A stretch of DNA of 5,728 nucleotides from JALSIF01 sp026981635 [NCBI: bacterium] (GTDB lineage: Bacteria; 4484-113; JALSIF01): assembly GCA_026981635.1 (NCBI GenBank), contig JALSIF010000035.1:1-5728 (forward strand), in the 5' to 3' direction. This document shows positions 1-5,728 of this stretch, in pieces. A program made the translations under genes and the position numbers. The notes below the pieces were generated by a model. That model was not told the DNA's origin. It did no database searches and saw only the letters and a list, made by a program, of their open reading frames with translations. Numbering within the stretch: the stretch's first letter is position 1; every line of letters begins with the position of its first letter.

Positions 1-801
1 GCTCACCCCCACCTCGCGCCAGTTCTGGATCTCATAGGTGAAGCAGCGCAGGTTGCGCCTTGCCGCAATGGAGGAGTCAAGCTGGCGCATGGTGCCGGCG
101 GCCAGGTTTCTGGGGTTGGCGTAGAGGGGAAGTCCCTCCTCCCGCCGCCGCCGGTTCACCTCCTCAAAGTCCACCCGGTTCATGTAGACCTCTCCCCGAA
201 TCCACACGGTGACCGGCTCGGAAAGCTCTAGGGGCAGGCTGCGGATGGTCCTCACGTTGTGGGTGACATCCTCCCCCTCGTAGCCGTTGCCCCGCGTCGC
301 CCCGTAGGCCAGCCGCCCCCTCTCATAGTGGAGCACAATTGAGAGGCCGTCATACTTGAGCTCACAGACCAGCTCCAGCTCCTCCATCACCTGGTCCAGG
401 GAGGAGTAGTGGCCCCGCTCAATGAGCAGCCGCCCGATGCGCTCCAGGTGGCGGTCCACCTCCCCGAAGTCAAAGGCGTTCTCCAGGCTCAGCATGGGAT
501 AGGGGTGCTTTACGGTGGGCAGCTCATCCCTCACCTCACCCCCCACCCGCTGGGTGGGCGAGTCGGGGATGACAAGCTCCGGGTGGGCCTCCTCCAGCTC
601 CCTCAGCCTCTGGTAGAGGCGGTCATACTCCTGGTCGGAGATGACCGGGTCGTCCAGGGTGTAATAGCGGTAGTCGTGGTAGGCCACCTCGCTTACCAGC
701 TCCAGGTACTCCTCCCACAGCTTGGGGTCAACCCCCGCCGGTGGGGAGTAGCGGCTGGCGAAGCGGCGCCGGAAGTCCTCCCTGCCCAGTGTGCCTTCCA
801 C
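1..801 (-). CDS. ligA: NAD+-dependent DNA ligase LigA, N-terminal 267 residues (3' end outside window)
   Basis: LigA seals nicks in duplex DNA using NAD+, in replication and repair. The fragment covers the Ia domain and most of the adenylation domain. The Ia NMN-binding motif is at residues 41-62 (YHDYRYYTLDDPVISDQEYD), SLEN is at 105-108, and the adenylated lysine motif ELKYDG has K149. After it come ATRGNGYEGED (168-178), RGEVY with E204, and ANPRNLAAGTMRQLD (228-242). These match the bacterial family by eye; the OB, zinc-finger, HhH and BRCT parts would lie beyond position 1. The GTG at 801 is the only plausible start between the in-frame stop at 814-816 and the conserved region, apart from a CTG at 789 that follows GGAAGG. 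Its Shine-Dalgarno is poor. Compared with my recollection of E. coli LigA, this protein has about 24 extra N-terminal residues and about 10 extra before the active-site Lys. It follows the upstream gene by 35 bp. Identity is very secure; the start is less so. Confidence 0.95.
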   Translation of the reverse strand, partial: MEGTLGREDFRRRFASRYSPPAGVDPKLWEEYLELVSEVAYHDYRYYTLDDPVISDQEYDRLYQRLRELEEAHPELVIPDSPTQRVGGEVRDELPTVKHPYPMLSLENAFDFGEVDRHLERIGRLLIERGHYSSLDQVMEELELVCELKYDGLSIVLHYERGRLAYGATRGNGYEGEDVTHNVRTIRSLPLELSEPVTVWIRGEVYMNRVDFEEVNRRRREEGLPLYANPRNLAAGTMRQLDSSIAARRNLRCFTYEIQNWREVGVS

Positions 802-836: not shown

Positions 837-3800
837 CTAAATGGGCCCCAGCTTTGGCCTCCCTTCGGGGCCGTTGTCGCTCTCCTTGGCCACCACTTCC
901 TCTTCCTCTTCCTTCTCTCTCCCACCTCCCCCACTCCACATCTCCCGCAGGCTGGGGGAGAGGAGGCGGTTGAGGGCCCCTTTAACACCGGTGATCTCCC
1001 GCTTAAGCTGGGCCATGGCAGCCACCGCCCGCGGGTTCTCCGGCTCCTTCTCCAGGGCAGTGGTTAAAAGCTCATAGGCGGTCTTGAAGTCCCGCTGGCG
1101 CATCCTGAGTTCAGCAAAGATGGCCAGCGCATCAGGGTCGCAAAGCCCCTTCATCCATCCACGGGCCAAAAGCTCGTCCGCCTCCCTGAGGCGCCGCTTG
1201 CGGCGAAGGATATCCACCGCCTCAACGTAGGCCGGGCCCAGCTTGGCATTGAGGTTGATGGCCTCCATGAAGCAGGCCAGCGCCCGGTCCTCCAGCCCCT
1301 TGAGCAGGTAGGCCCGGCCCAGTTGCAGGTGGATGATGGCAAAGCCCGGGTTGATCTCCAGCGCCTGCTCATACTGGTGGATGGCGTTGTCGGCGTCCCC
1401 CTCGTTGAGGTAGGAGTTGCCCCGGTAAAGAAAGCTTCTCGCTAGGGTGCCCCGTTTGGCGTGGCTTACCGCGGTGGTGGCGTAGGTCTTTACCCGCCCC
1501 ACATTGACCAGCACGGCGCTGATGGTGCCGGGGAAGCGCCGCCGCATCGCCTCACTCTGGAGAAGCTCCATCGCCCGGTTGGGATCGTCGGTGGAGGTCA
1601 TCAGCTCCCGAAGCTCGCTTACCGAAAGCCGCCCCGACAGCTCGTCGCTCACCAGCAGGAGCTGGTCGCCGTCCCGGTTGAGCTTCTTTACAAAGTCAAC
1701 CCTAAACACCTCCCCCTCGCCCAGCGCCTCCTTGGCCTCCTCCGCCAGCACCTTGCCGTTGCCCCCGATGATTAGGGTAGAGCGGAGGGCGGTCTTGTCA
1801 AAGTCGGGGTCCACCACCTCCCCCCGGTGGAGCAGCACCAGCCTCACCGGCCCCACCGTGCCCGCATAGAGGGTCCCCTCCTGAATGAGCACGAAGCCCA
1901 GTCCAGCCCGCGCCCGGTTGAGGATGCCGGCCTGGAAGGCATAGCGGTAGCACTCCTCATTCACCCGCCGGAGCACAAGCTTTAGGAACTCCTCCGGCTC
2001 CTCCCGGGAAAGCCTTACCGACTCCTCGCCCCCCAGCCGGGAGGGGTGGAGGATGAGCTCCCTGAACTTGCCGGCGGCAATCTCGGCCAGCTTCTGCCCC
2101 TGGCCCACCTGGCCACCCTCCCCGCGGGCCAGTGCCGCCACCCCGCGGGGCTTCTGGTCGGCCGAGGGCAGCCTAAGGCAGAAGGTGGCCTCGTTTCGCT
2201 CGCGGGCGTTCTTGCCCACCATGTTTAAGTCAGCAAAGTCAAAGAAGACCGGCGGGACCTCAACCTTGACCTCCCGGTGCCAGCCAAGCAGCCTTCTCAG
2301 CTCCTCCCGCAGCCGCTCGGCGCTGCCAATGCGGGTGCGGGGGTTCTTCTCCAGCAGGGCATAGAGCAGCGCCTTAGCGTCCACCGAGATGAGGGCATCC
2401 TCAATGGGCCCTCCCGGGTCGGTGTTCAGGTGGTCGTGGATGATCTCTTGCTCCAGCTTGAGGGTGAAGGGGGCATGCCCCACCAGCATCTCAAAGATGA
2501 CCACCCCCAGGGTGTAGAAGTCGCTGGCCGGGAGCTGGGGCTTGCCCTGGGCCAGTTCCGGATTGAAGTACTCTGCAGGGGTCTCATTCAGGTTGCCGTG
2601 CTCCACCAGGAAGCGGGAGATGAAAAGGTCGGCCAGCTTCACCTCGCTGAGATCGGGACTGAGGAAGATGTTGGTGGGCTTGAGCCCCCCGTAGGCCTCG
2701 CCGATCTCGCTGTGGATCCAGTCCAGCGTCTCGTTGATGGAGTAGGCGATGGTAAGCACGTCCCTGAGAGGGAGCTTGCTGCGGCGGATCAGCACATCCT
2801 CCAGGTTCTGCCCCCCGTGCTCATAGACCAGGTAGCCGTGCTCAAAGTGGACCCCCACGTCGTAGACCTTGAGCAGGCCGGGGTGATCCAGATTGGGCAG
2901 GGAGCGAAGCCTAGTCTTAAACAGGGGGACCAGCTCGGGATGGTCACGAAGGCCTACCACCTTGACGATGACCGGCTCACCGCTCCTCACATCGCGCCCC
3001 TCGTAGACCCGAAAGACCGAGGAGCCCTTGAGCTCCTCCCCCAGTCGGTAGCGGCCCCCTAGGTGGGTGGAGAAGATGAAGGCCTCAAAGGCGTGACGGG
3101 CCTCGTCCCCACCGGAGAGTTCCAGGAACACATCCCGCGCCACCTCAAAGCTGCGGTAGCGCTGGCTGGGGTCGGGGGTGGTGAGCTTGTAGATGGCCTC
3201 CCTGAGGGGCAGGGGCAGGTCGGGAATGGCGCTCAGGTAGCGGTGGTAGGCCTCTGCCTCCAGCTCTCCGATCTCCCCCCGCACCTCCTCCACCGGTCTT
3301 CCCACCACCAGCGAAAGCATGATGATGCCCAGGGCATAGAGGTCAAGCAGATGCTTGGGATAGGCCACATAGTCATCGCACAGCGGGTCAAGGCAGGGAT
3401 CGGGGGTGGCCTCCTCCATGCCCGCCCGCCGAAACTCGTCCAGCAGCTTGAAATGGCTGAGTCTCACATGCCCCCGGTCCAGGTCTAGGTGGATGAAGTC
3501 GGGGTGCAGGTTGCCGTGATACTCCACTCCCTTGCTCTCGGCAAAAAGCAGCCCCTCAAGCACCTGCAGCCCAATGGTAAGCACATCCTTGGGGCTGAGA
3601 CCGGCGCTGATGTCAAGCAGGGAGAGGCGGCTCCCCTTGGGCTCAAAGACCAGGTAGGCCCGCCCCTTGAGCCGGCCAAAGGCCAGCGGCCGAAGCAGGC
3701 TGGGGTGCTCAATCTGCCCCAGGATGATGCTAGTGCGGCGGAGTTCCTCCCCCCCCTGGGGGGTGAGCACCTCCCGGATGAGGTGAAGCTCCCGCGGACT

Positions 3801-3899
3801 GCCGCTCTCTTCATCTACCCCCTGGTAGCGGTCAAAGTAGCGGTGTCGCTCGGCGAGTTCGGTGAAAACTGCACCCCCAACACTGAGCCTCTCACTCAT
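837..3899 (-). CDS. Multidomain signalling-type protein: tandem pseudokinase - PP2C-like pseudophosphatase - TPR
   Basis: This intact 1020-residue protein starts at an ATG with GGAG six bases upstream. Kinase-like domain 1 (about 20-262) has HGNLHP (128-133) where HRDLKP belongs, SHF (148-150) for DFG, and His39 at the beta-3 Lys position. Kinase-like domain 2 (about 282-540) keeps K313, LKPTN (406-410), D424, TPAEYFNPE (440-448) and D460-FYTLG. However, HRD is YGG (403-405), DFG is DLF, and Arg330 sits at the alpha-C Glu position. The PP2C-like domain (about 553-803) has NEA (569-571) for NED, ARGEGG (591-596) for ADGMGG, VGPVR (682-686) for xGDSR, SDEL (751-754) for SDGL, and GTIS (791-794) for DNIT. 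Four TPRs (820-955) and a Gly/Glu-rich tail (989-1020) follow. I see no signal peptide or membrane segment, so it is probably cytoplasmic. Inference: a non-catalytic scaffold or sensor, binding partners through the TPRs. The partner is unknown. Membership of the Ser/Thr kinase and PP2C folds is inferred by motif only. The ligA gene follows after 35 bp. Confidence 0.9.
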   Translation of the reverse strand: MSERLSVGGAVFTELAERHRYFDRYQGVDEESGSPRELHLIREVLTPQGGEELRRTSIILGQIEHPSLLRPLAFGRLKGRAYLVFEPKGSRLSLLDISAGLSPKDVLTIGLQVLEGLLFAESKGVEYHGNLHPDFIHLDLDRGHVRLSHFKLLDEFRRAGMEEATPDPCLDPLCDDYVAYPKHLLDLYALGIIMLSLVVGRPVEEVRGEIGELEAEAYHRYLSAIPDLPLPLREAIYKLTTPDPSQRYRSFEVARDVFLELSGGDEARHAFEAFIFSTHLGGRYRLGEELKGSSVFRVYEGRDVRSGEPVIVKVVGLRDHPELVPLFKTRLRSLPNLDHPGLLKVYDVGVHFEHGYLVYEHGGQNLEDVLIRRSKLPLRDVLTIAYSINETLDWIHSEIGEAYGGLKPTNIFLSPDLSEVKLADLFISRFLVEHGNLNETPAEYFNPELAQGKPQLPASDFYTLGVVIFEMLVGHAPFTLKLEQEIIHDHLNTDPGGPIEDALISVDAKALLYALLEKNPRTRIGSAERLREELRRLLGWHREVKVEVPPVFFDFADLNMVGKNARERNEATFCLRLPSADQKPRGVAALARGEGGQVGQGQKLAEIAAGKFRELILHPSRLGGEESVRLSREEPEEFLKLVLRRVNEECYRYAFQAGILNRARAGLGFVLIQEGTLYAGTVGPVRLVLLHRGEVVDPDFDKTALRSTLIIGGNGKVLAEEAKEALGEGEVFRVDFVKKLNRDGDQLLLVSDELSGRLSVSELRELMTSTDDPNRAMELLQSEAMRRRFPGTISAVLVNVGRVKTYATTAVSHAKRGTLARSFLYRGNSYLNEGDADNAIHQYEQALEINPGFAIIHLQLGRAYLLKGLEDRALACFMEAINLNAKLGPAYVEAVDILRRKRRLREADELLARGWMKGLCDPDALAIFAELRMRQRDFKTAYELLTTALEKEPENPRAVAAMAQLKREITGVKGALNRLLSPSLREMWSGGGGREKEEEEEVVAKESDNGPEGRPKLGPI
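1035..1442 (-). repeat. four tandem 34-residue TPR motifs within the pseudokinase protein
   Basis: Residues 820-853, 854-887, 888-921 and 922-955 form four back-to-back 34-residue units. The first two match the TPR consensus well, with LYRGNSYLNEGDADNAIHQY then ALEINP in unit 1, and LGRAYLLKGLEDRALACF in unit 2. Units 3 and 4 are weaker but keep register, for example YELLTTALEKEPEN closing unit 4. A further helix (956-980) probably caps the array. TPRs generally mediate protein-protein contacts. The repetition is at protein level; the DNA copies are diverged. Confidence 0.85.
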
Positions 3900-4000: not shown

Positions 4001-4879
4001 CTAATTTCCAACATGCCTTCCCAACTTCCTCTGCCACACCAGCCAGGCGATCATCCCCAGCCCCACCATAGAGGCCCCCATCCCTCCCTCAAGTCCCATG
4101 GGGGAGAGGGAAATGAGCTTCGGTTCCCCCACCACCACCGCCACCGGGTGCCAGGGAAGGCCACTGGGGAAACCGCTAAGCCTCATCCCCAAAAGGACGT
4201 GGGCTAGGTTCCAGGCGAAGTGGAACCCGGCCGGAAAGTAGATGCCTCCAAAGGTGCGGTAGGCCAGGGCAAGGGCGAGGGCGATGAGAAATACGTTGGC
4301 CAGAAAGAGGGGCTCCGAACGAGCACCGGGGTTGCCCAGGTGGACGGCGGAGAAGAGCAGGGAACTTGCCACCCCCCAAAAGCCCCAACTTGCTGCCCAG
4401 AGTGCCGGCCTGAGCCCCTCACCCCCTACCAGCCGGAGGAAGAGCTCTCCCAGCCGGATGGTCCCCATGGCGGGGACAGCAAACAGGATGGTGCGAAAGA
4501 GGAGCTCCTCAAACAGGCTCTGCTCGGCAATAAACAGCCCCACCGCCCATAGGGGCCCAATGAGCACCAACGAATTTCCCAGGTTGGTCCCCGACCCAAT
4601 CTCCAGGCCAGGATAGATATCCTTCCAGCTCGCTCCCAGGATCAGACTGGTTTCCCGGGTGACAAGTCCCACCAGGACCAGAAACAGCACCCCCCCAAAA
4701 CCCCATCCCAGGCCGGCCAGAAACCGCCGGGGGGTGTGATCATCGGGGATAAGACCCGACTCTTGGAATCGTCCCAGGAAGAGGGGCACCACCAGAAAGA
4801 TGGTGAATGCCCCGCTAATGAGGAGTAGAAAGGCCCAGCGCAGGATCAGGGGCCGGATGAGTTCAACGGTAGGCTCCAC
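4001..4879 (-). CDS. CPBP-family intramembrane metalloprotease (Rce1/Abi-like)
   Basis: This 292-residue, strongly hydrophobic protein has the three CPBP motifs in order: EELLFR (124-129, the EExxxR motif), FSAVH (176-180, FxxxH) and HFAWN (220-224, HxxxN). In this family these Glu and His residues form the metalloprotease active site within the membrane. Probable membrane segments are near 11-36, 54-74, 103-135, 158-180, 188-207, 213-232 and 266-283. Family members process prenylated proteins or peptides, or act in bacteriocin immunity and signalling; the substrate here cannot be read from sequence. The GTG start at 4879 directly follows the stop of the glycosyltransferase gene and has AGGAGG eight bases upstream, so the start is well supported. 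All active-site motifs are intact, unlike in the neighbouring pseudoenzyme. Length is typical for the family. Confidence 0.9.
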   Translation of the reverse strand: MEPTVELIRPLILRWAFLLLISGAFTIFLVVPLFLGRFQESGLIPDDHTPRRFLAGLGWGFGGVLFLVLVGLVTRETSLILGASWKDIYPGLEIGSGTNLGNSLVLIGPLWAVGLFIAEQSLFEELLFRTILFAVPAMGTIRLGELFLRLVGGEGLRPALWAASWGFWGVASSLLFSAVHLGNPGARSEPLFLANVFLIALALALAYRTFGGIYFPAGFHFAWNLAHVLLGMRLSGFPSGLPWHPVAVVVGEPKLISLSPMGLEGGMGASMVGLGMIAWLVWQRKLGRHVGN

Positions 4880-5728
4880 CTACCCCTCCTCCTGCAGCAG
4901 ACGAAGGATTCCCTTGGCCGTCTGGGACCAGGTGAAGGCCAGCGCCCGCTCCCTCACCCGCCGGCCCTCCTCCCGCAGTACCTCCCCCAGGTCGGCCAGC
5001 TCCCGCCACCTTTCCACCATCAGGTGCTCCTCCGGCTCCACCAGAAAGCGGGTCACATTTTCCCGGTGGGCGCCGATCTCATAGGCCAGTGCCGGGGTCT
5101 CCTGATAGCCCGCCTCCAGGATGGGCAGATTGAACCCTTCCCAGCGCGACATGGTCACATAGAGATCGGCCCGCCGGTAGAGGGCGGCAAGCTCCGCCGG
5201 GGTGGGGTTAGCCACCACCACCGCCCCCTCACTCCAGCCCCTGAGCTCCTCCTGGCTCTCCACCCTACCCGCCAGAACCAGCCGGGTACGGGGGTGGGTC
5301 TTTCTCACCTGGCGGTAGGCCCCCACCAGCTCCCCAAGCCCCTTGTAGGGGTGGTGGTGGGGACTGAGCCTAGCCACCGAAAGGCAGACAAAGGCATCCT
5401 CCCCCAGCTCCCTAACCTGCTCGGGGAGCTCCCCGTTGCTGGAAATGGGCAGGTGGTCGCCCCCCAGGTAGATCTCCAGCGCCCCCCAGCGGGCCTTCTC
5501 CGGCAGTGTCCCCCTGAGAAAGCGGGAGATGGTGACCACCCTATCCACTGCCAAAACCTGTCCAGCCAGGGCGCGCCTCAGCCACCACCAGTTCGCCTTC
5601 CCCCCTAGGGAGAAACCCGCCGAAGGGGGGAGGCCAAACTCCCACCACAGGGTGCGTGGCCTCCCTCCCACCCTCTCCTCATAGAGGATGGGGGCGAGGG
5701 AGTAGAAAGGAAAACTAGCCAGCACCAA
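4880..5728 (-). CDS. GT4-type glycosyltransferase, C-terminal 282 residues (5' end outside window)
   Basis: This is a GT-B fold glycosyltransferase of the GT4 (group 1) type, which transfers a sugar from a nucleotide-sugar to an acceptor such as a polysaccharide or lipid precursor. In fragment numbering, the family features are SVARLSP followed by YKGLGELVGAY (117-138), LVLAG (150-154), RRADLYVTMSRWEGF (185-199), and the E-x7-E motif from E197 to E205 in EGFNLPILE, where the nucleotide-sugar is usually bound. YEIGAHRENV (216-225) follows. The open frame runs to the window edge. The TTG at 5728 should not be read as the true start, because roughly 90 residues of the N-terminal Rossmann domain normally precede this point. 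The acceptor and sugar are unknown. Its stop codon abuts the CPBP start, so the two are likely in one operon and perhaps act together at the cell envelope. Confidence 0.88.
   Translation of the reverse strand: MVLASFPFYSLAPILYEERVGGRPRTLWWEFGLPPSAGFSLGGKANWWWLRRALAGQVLAVDRVVTISRFLRGTLPEKARWGALEIYLGGDHLPISSNGELPEQVRELGEDAFVCLSVARLSPHHHPYKGLGELVGAYRQVRKTHPRTRLVLAGRVESQEELRGWSEGAVVVANPTPAELAALYRRADLYVTMSRWEGFNLPILEAGYQETPALAYEIGAHRENVTRFLVEPEEHLMVERWRELADLGEVLREEGRRVRERALAFTWSQTAKGILRLLQEEG
4888..4893 (-). promoter_or_regulatory. strong ribosome binding site of the CPBP gene inside the glycosyltransferase 3' end
   Basis: AGGAGG lies eight bases before the GTG at 4879 and encodes part of the last Gln-Glu-Glu codons of the upstream gene. 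The stop codon (4882-4880) touches the start codon without a gap. This arrangement decides the GTG start and indicates translational coupling. Confidence 0.8.

Follow-up and report, generated by a model that had tools for sequence, protein, structure and literature searches.

The window analysed here is the whole of one contig, C35 (JALSIF010000035.1, 5728 bases), in a draft genome of the bacterium JALSIF01 sp026981635 (1.75 Mb in 317 contigs, 85% complete). An open reading frame (ORF) on its minus strand, at 837-3899, runs without internal stops and encodes a 1020-residue protein, in which two kinase-like domains are followed by a PP2C-like domain and TPRs. Residues of the catalytic sites are missing from all three enzyme-like domains, and the sequences of relatives indicate that the chain is nonetheless maintained by purifying selection. 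The gene and its features are listed below.

837-3899, minus strand: ORF of the pseudoenzyme protein, ATG start, 1020 residues
3108-3866, minus strand: kinase-like domain 1 (residues 12-264); HRD Asp, DFG Asp and beta3 Lys lost
3510-3518, minus strand: HGN replacing HRD in domain 1 (residues 128-130)
2265-3098, minus strand: kinase-like domain 2 (residues 268-545); lacks HRD Asp and alphaC Glu, retains Lys313, Asn410 and Asp424
2961-2963, minus strand: Lys313, the beta3 Lys of domain 2, kept in 7/7 phylum members
2685-2693, minus strand: YGG replacing HRD in domain 2 (residues 403-405)
2628-2630, minus strand: Asp424, the DFG Asp of domain 2, kept in 7/7 phylum members
1482-2264, minus strand: PP2C-like domain (residues 546-806)
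2187-2204, minus strand: RERNEA replacing RxxNED (residues 566-571)
2109-2126, minus strand: RGEGGQ replacing DGMGGH (residues 592-597)
1641-1649, minus strand: SDE replacing SDG (residues 751-753), the sole metal Asp kept, non-Asp in six relatives
1524-1529, minus strand: GT replacing DN (residues 791-792)
1005-1442, minus strand: TPR region (residues 820-965), from Pfam

Pfam assigned two Pkinase stretches and TPRs to the protein, with domain 2 scoring above the Pkinase cut-off, and no Pfam PP2C family was matched at E ≤ 1 in residues 546-806. An NCBIfam Stp1/PP2C model aligned to residues 565-798 with an E-value of 3.3e-9, at 36.6 of 230 bits and thus far under its cut-off. A profile of seven homologues over residues 546-806 retrieved solved PP2C structures, Stp1 being the best (E = 8.7e-8), and the family profiles of domains 1 and 2 retrieved the solved kinase StkP (E = 1.1e-17 and 2.8e-34, respectively), domain 1 representing a diverged kinase fold. 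The two kinase-like domains also aligned to each other in hhalign (E = 1.8e-17). Structure models were of low confidence, with a mean predicted local distance difference test (pLDDT) score of 45.3 for the PP2C piece, modelled without an alignment, and 54.2 for domain 2, modelled from four sequences. The corresponding Foldseek searches, which for this reason give weak support only, placed PP2C-family structures in the first 21 matches of the former (best 1.2e-3, none at E ≤ 0.001) and kinases in all 50 matches listed for the latter (best 1.2e-10). The kinase and PP2C folds and the four-part order proposed in a first-pass annotation of the window are therefore real.

The protein was detected in 7 of the 10 genomes examined from the window's phylum (E ≤ 1e-30), in the same four-part order that the annotation had suggested searching for. 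The three genomes without it belong to one family (f4; completeness 91, 88 and 77). A profile of the degenerate PP2C domain (A4), run on 385 genomes, gave some PP2C-like match in 89 of them at E ≤ 0.001, and the fetched long-ORF matches included three proteins of 1261-1276 residues, from one second phylum, with the order kinase-like (three times), PP2C-like, TPR. This version with three kinase-like domains was present in 4/4 genomes examined from that phylum. A nine-sequence profile separated the family clearly on 385 genomes, the weakest member listed scoring 245.6 bits and the next match 79.1. Profile searches of the two 385-genome sets, which largely overlap, yielded no further members, matches under 245.6 bits not having been read singly. 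The second phylum also encodes additional ORFs of 1181-1279 residues with partial kinase-domain matches (G118:C3:219645, G254:C56:29088, G254:C28:16011 and G381:C15:9064).

In domain 1 of the window protein, the beta3 Lys is replaced by His, the alphaC Glu by Thr and HRD by HGN, and the DFG columns contain HFK. The HRD and DFG Asp are absent from all seven phylum members, and the beta3 Lys from all six in which the N-lobe is present. In domain 2, HRD is changed to YGG, the alphaC Glu to Arg and DFG to DLF; its HRD Asp and alphaC Glu are absent in 7/7 members, and Lys313, Asn410 and Asp424 are invariant in all seven in the family alignment. An insertion in G007 and G008 makes the raw profile display different residues in the Lys column, and the family alignment restores the Lys. 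At the HRD Asp position, both domains of all seven members have Gly, Ala, Asn, Ser or other residues instead. On the same profile, 18 control kinases, which also went into building it, retained the HRD Asp, DFG Asp and beta3 Lys in 17/18 cases each and the alphaC Glu in 15/18. Two of these controls are themselves degenerate, L030 (G024) with HGH for HRD and L021 (G013) with Arg at the beta3 Lys position and LAG in place of DFG. In two members from family f3 (L010:571-3861 and L011:745-3858), a long acidic stretch is inserted into domain 1 behind the DFG-equivalent.

The same residue losses recur in six homologues at 36-39% identity, so the degeneracy reflects neither chance nor assembly error. 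The first-pass annotation had read HGN and YGG correctly, and its SHF for DFG was one residue off. Its description of "two dead kinases" holds for the HRD Asp, which both domains have lost, but it had overlooked the three nucleotide- and metal-site residues kept by domain 2. "Dead" therefore means the lack of the HRD base and not necessarily the lack of ATP binding, and domain 2 may still bind nucleotide. Domain 1 of the second-phylum proteins retains the Lys (3/3 seen), the Asn and the DFG Asp (both 4/4), and HxD in 2/4 members, so some kinase-like domains in the wider family may not be dead. In 4/4 of these proteins, the HRD Asp is absent from domain 2 and both the HRD and the DFG Asp from domain 3. 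At least one domain with the Lys/Asn/Asp triad thus occurs in each phylum, at a differing position, namely domain 1 in the second phylum and domain 2 in the window's phylum. In a kinase-domain tree that omitted domain 1 of G008 and G385, both cut by contig ends, every domain position formed its own clade within each phylum, and one-to-one pairing of the domains between phyla was not resolved.

The PP2C-like domain of the window protein has RERNEA for RxxNED, RGEGG for DGMGG, SDE for SDG and GT for DN, which leaves one of four metal Asp and agrees with the annotated loss of most of them. The SDG-site Asp is present in the window protein and absent from the six relatives, and GT replaces DN in all seven. 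The NED site has Ala in the window protein and Glu in the six relatives, where one acidic ligand could therefore remain. The 20 PP2C controls were selected for their motifs out of 41 loci tried; their match is thus built in, and they serve as a reference, not as an independent control. Across the PP2C region of a ten-sequence alignment of both phyla, E614 and E762 are the only invariant acidic residues, and neither lies at a metal motif; a catalytic Asp displaced elsewhere, which the annotation had named as a finding that would overturn its reading, is therefore not apparent.

The degenerate PP2Cs of the two phyla share ancestry, judging from profile and tree comparisons. They matched each other in hhalign at E = 4.4e-20, and matched active PP2Cs at 9.8e-8 (window's phylum, against the active PP2Cs of that phylum) and 3.4e-3 (second phylum). 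All 11 grouped on one side of a 29-row PP2C tree, separate from the active PP2Cs, with support of 97/98, long branches calling for caution; the control rows L102 and L104 had been removed from it as duplicates.

The frame is open in all seven phylum members, one of which is cut by a contig end. For G007 and G008, two genomes of one genus, the ratio of nonsynonymous to synonymous substitution rates (dN/dS) of the whole protein was 0.072 over 875 codons, with 0.098 for the domain 1 C-lobe, 0.087 for domain 2, 0.057 for the PP2C-like domain and 0.036 for the TPRs; with dS at 0.66-1.65 in a single pair, these values are rough. In the same pair, the active kinase domain gave 0.125, the active PP2C domain 0.30 and the N-terminal extension of the latter 0.605. 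In the one pair measured, the chain is thus under stronger constraint than the active kinase and the active phosphatase that these genomes encode. The annotation had argued from the unbroken frame for selection on a non-catalytic role, and the retention of the gene in 7/10 genomes, the open frames and a dN/dS of 0.04-0.10, well below 1 in every domain tested in this close pair, support that argument.

With a kinase fold that is under selection and has lost catalytic motif(s), the kinase-like domains of the window protein classify by sequence as pseudokinases, predicted to lack phosphotransfer. They share the fold of active Hanks-type Ser/Thr kinases (PknB/StkP-like) and lack the HRD Asp; of the Lys/Glu/Asp set, domain 1 has none and domain 2 the Lys and Asp. 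The third domain likewise classifies as a PP2C-family pseudophosphatase, with the fold under selection and metal ligands lost; it resembles active bacterial PP2Cs (PstP/Stp1) in fold and keeps one of their four metal Asp (at NED, DGMGG, SDG and DN).

Active kinases are encoded elsewhere in these genomes, as are active PP2Cs in most of the window's phylum. Outside genes of this type, PF00069 matches over the cut-off were found in 10/10 genomes from the window's phylum; the motifs are intact (HRD and DFG) in nine and read YRD and DFS in the tenth. PF13672 PP2Cs were found in 8/10, with the metal motifs kept in the six that were aligned; the other two appear among the controls. In the window's own genome (G000), the active kinase lies on contig C8 and the PP2C on contig C281. 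Among the second-phylum genomes, three have a best kinase with intact HRD and DFG, and PF13672, the only PP2C model tried, had no match in the four genomes (G118, G254, G381 and G385) despite several kinases. Hydropathy identified no transmembrane segment in 11 family proteins (two of them contig-cut), their maximal 19-residue values being 1.1-1.7 versus 2.6-3.0 at the C-terminus of 7/7 active kinases. These kinases (L108, L110, L111, L112, L113, L114 and L044) have, by eye, a Cys-rich zinc-ribbon-like stretch with CxxC pairs before the C-terminal hydrophobic segment. The active PP2Cs of the window's phylum (L053:769-2262, L049:649-2271, L050:619-2271, L052:473-1942, L054:3-1655 and L055:742-2208) bear an N-terminal extension of ~230-280 residues that evolves fast (dN/dS ~0.6, one pair). 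No Pfam family covered the extension in the five scanned, and a kinase-like nature suspected by eye was not supported, as hhalign gave probabilities of 0.6% and 0.1% against domains 1 and 2.

The neighbours of the gene in the window lie on the same strand.

1-801, minus strand: 5' part of ligA, downstream of the ORF
4001-4879, minus strand: Rce1/CPBP-like membrane protease, upstream of the ORF
4880-5728, minus strand: family-4-type glycosyltransferase, upstream of the ORF

A promoter and terminator scan gave no signal clearly above shuffled sequences. Among 20 neighbours scanned with Pfam were varied household, transport and modification genes, as well as genes without assignment. No neighbour was common across families in the partial neighbourhoods available, and a conserved operon was rejected on this basis; the non-conserved neighbourhood fits a hub acting in trans.

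With moderate confidence, we read the protein as a conserved, soluble and probably non-catalytic hub of a Hanks-type Ser/Thr phosphorylation network. A kinase or phosphorylated proteins would dock on the pseudo-PP2C and pseudokinase domain 1, clients would be recruited by the TPRs, and domain 2, with its Lys/Asn/Asp site and no HRD base, would act as an ATP-bound conformational switch. A kinase or phosphoprotein partner is likelier than an active PP2C, given that PF13672 found none in the second phylum. A more speculative extension, which we consider possible but doubtful, is that ATP and phosphorylation state are sensed by the dead kinase domains together with the dead PP2C and signalled to TPR-bound clients, the protein being a non-catalytic integrator across the two phyla.

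Several points weigh against the hub. With no PF13672 matches in the second phylum, its general role cannot be to regulate an active PP2C, and the three f4 genomes have active kinases without the gene, so the network can run without the protein. Kinase activity may persist in domain 1 of the second phylum, where the Lys, Asn and DFG Asp are kept, and HxD in 2/4. Added to these are the low confidence of both structure models and the roughness of the dN/dS values; the partner, binding and activity of the hub, including its scaffold or reader role, are predictions.

Among other accounts, a scaffold unrelated to Ser/Thr phosphorylation, its folds serving as binding modules of another machine, has a precedent in EssB/YukC of type VII secretion (PMC12599244, available portion) and agrees with a neighbourhood without phosphosignalling genes. 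We judge it unlikely, as a chain that unites TPRs with kinase and phosphatase folds would be hard to explain without phosphosignalling, and no conserved adjacent secretion genes were seen in the partial neighbourhoods. Domain 2 could instead be an enzyme of another kind, binding ATP via Lys313, Asn410 and Asp424 and transferring AMP or another group, as described in the available portion of PMC12599244 for the pseudokinases SelO (AMPylation) and SidJ (glutamylation). The invariance of the three residues in 7/7 members favours this possibility, but the alphaC Glu is lost in all seven, domain 3 of the second phylum, which adjoins the PP2C, has lost the Lys and DFG Asp, and no family-specific invariant acidic residue lies near the catalytic loop, making it rather improbable.

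A kinase still active through an unusual catalytic residue is less probable again. Domain 2 does exceed the Pfam Pkinase cut-off with three site residues kept, and 2/4 second-phylum members have HxD in domain 1; however, the HRD Asp is replaced in both domains and the alphaC Glu of domain 2 lost in 7/7, and no other invariant Asp lies close to the loop. Decay of the gene or an assembly artefact would match the lost catalytic residues and the origin of the window, a contig of 5.7 kb, in a genome that is incomplete. It has next to no probability and was rejected, since the frame is open, the same substitutions stand in six more genomes, homologues occur in 4/4 second-phylum genomes and dN/dS is ~0.07; neutral decay is excluded.

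The hub reading remains our preferred one. The conserved intact chain suggests that kinase and phosphatase folds serve some bacteria as a hub or sensor without enzymatic activity. Bacterial pseudokinases have been catalogued, yet almost none has been tested, and a single chain with pseudokinases and a pseudophosphatase is a compact test of dead signalling enzymes as bacterial sensors or scaffolds, with Lys313, Asn410 and Asp424 as a defined nucleotide-site triad for mutation.

TAB1 is a PP2C-like pseudophosphatase that regulates a kinase, activating TAK1. TAB1 and PHLPP2 are both presented as pseudophosphatases in the available portion of PMC12002173, and resemble the present domain in having a PP2C fold that has lost metal ligands and, in the present domain by prediction, catalysis. 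They differ in being eukaryotic and in keeping one metal site (PMC12002173, same portion), whereas the PP2C here forms a single chain with pseudokinases and TPRs, and the SDG and DN Asp are both gone in 6/7 phylum members. The parallel is one of analogy, and TAB1-like kinase activation in these bacteria is a prediction.

The bacterial pseudokinase families ActPs1-3, GLW, CP1, DYD and DLHK, as well as EssB/YukC and MviN, are reviewed in PMC12599244. They likewise have kinase folds with degraded motifs. DYD also misses the alphaC Glu, yet is thought to bind ATP, and EssB is a scaffold (PMC12599244, available portion). The main text of that review, as available, mentions no PP2C, TPR or tandem arrangement, and "pseudophosphatase" occurs in a reference only. 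The NCBIfam model of MAD6, a tandem-kinase protein of MADS defence, spans both kinase-like domains (E = 2.6e-28) and thus shares their tandem layout, but the window protein scores 98.9 bits where the cut-off is 460 and has no conserved defence neighbourhood. Membership in a defence system was rejected, as MAD6, PD-T4-6 and similar models match through the kinase fold only.

The first-pass annotation named no described precedent for such an architecture, and we likewise found no description of a bacterial pseudokinase-pseudophosphatase-TPR protein, or of a bacterial PP2C pseudophosphatase, in searches of open-access literature (subscription papers and preprints were outside the scope). PP2C and kinase, or kinase and TPR, do occur together in one bacterial chain, as separate proteins in Pseudomonas (gi 9947763) and Chlamydia, respectively (PMC1262709, available portion). 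The Pseudomonas protein has its PP2C on the N-terminal side of one kinase, and that portion of PMC1262709 does not call the PP2C inactive, whereas the chain reported here has two or three kinase-like domains, then a degenerate PP2C, and then TPRs.

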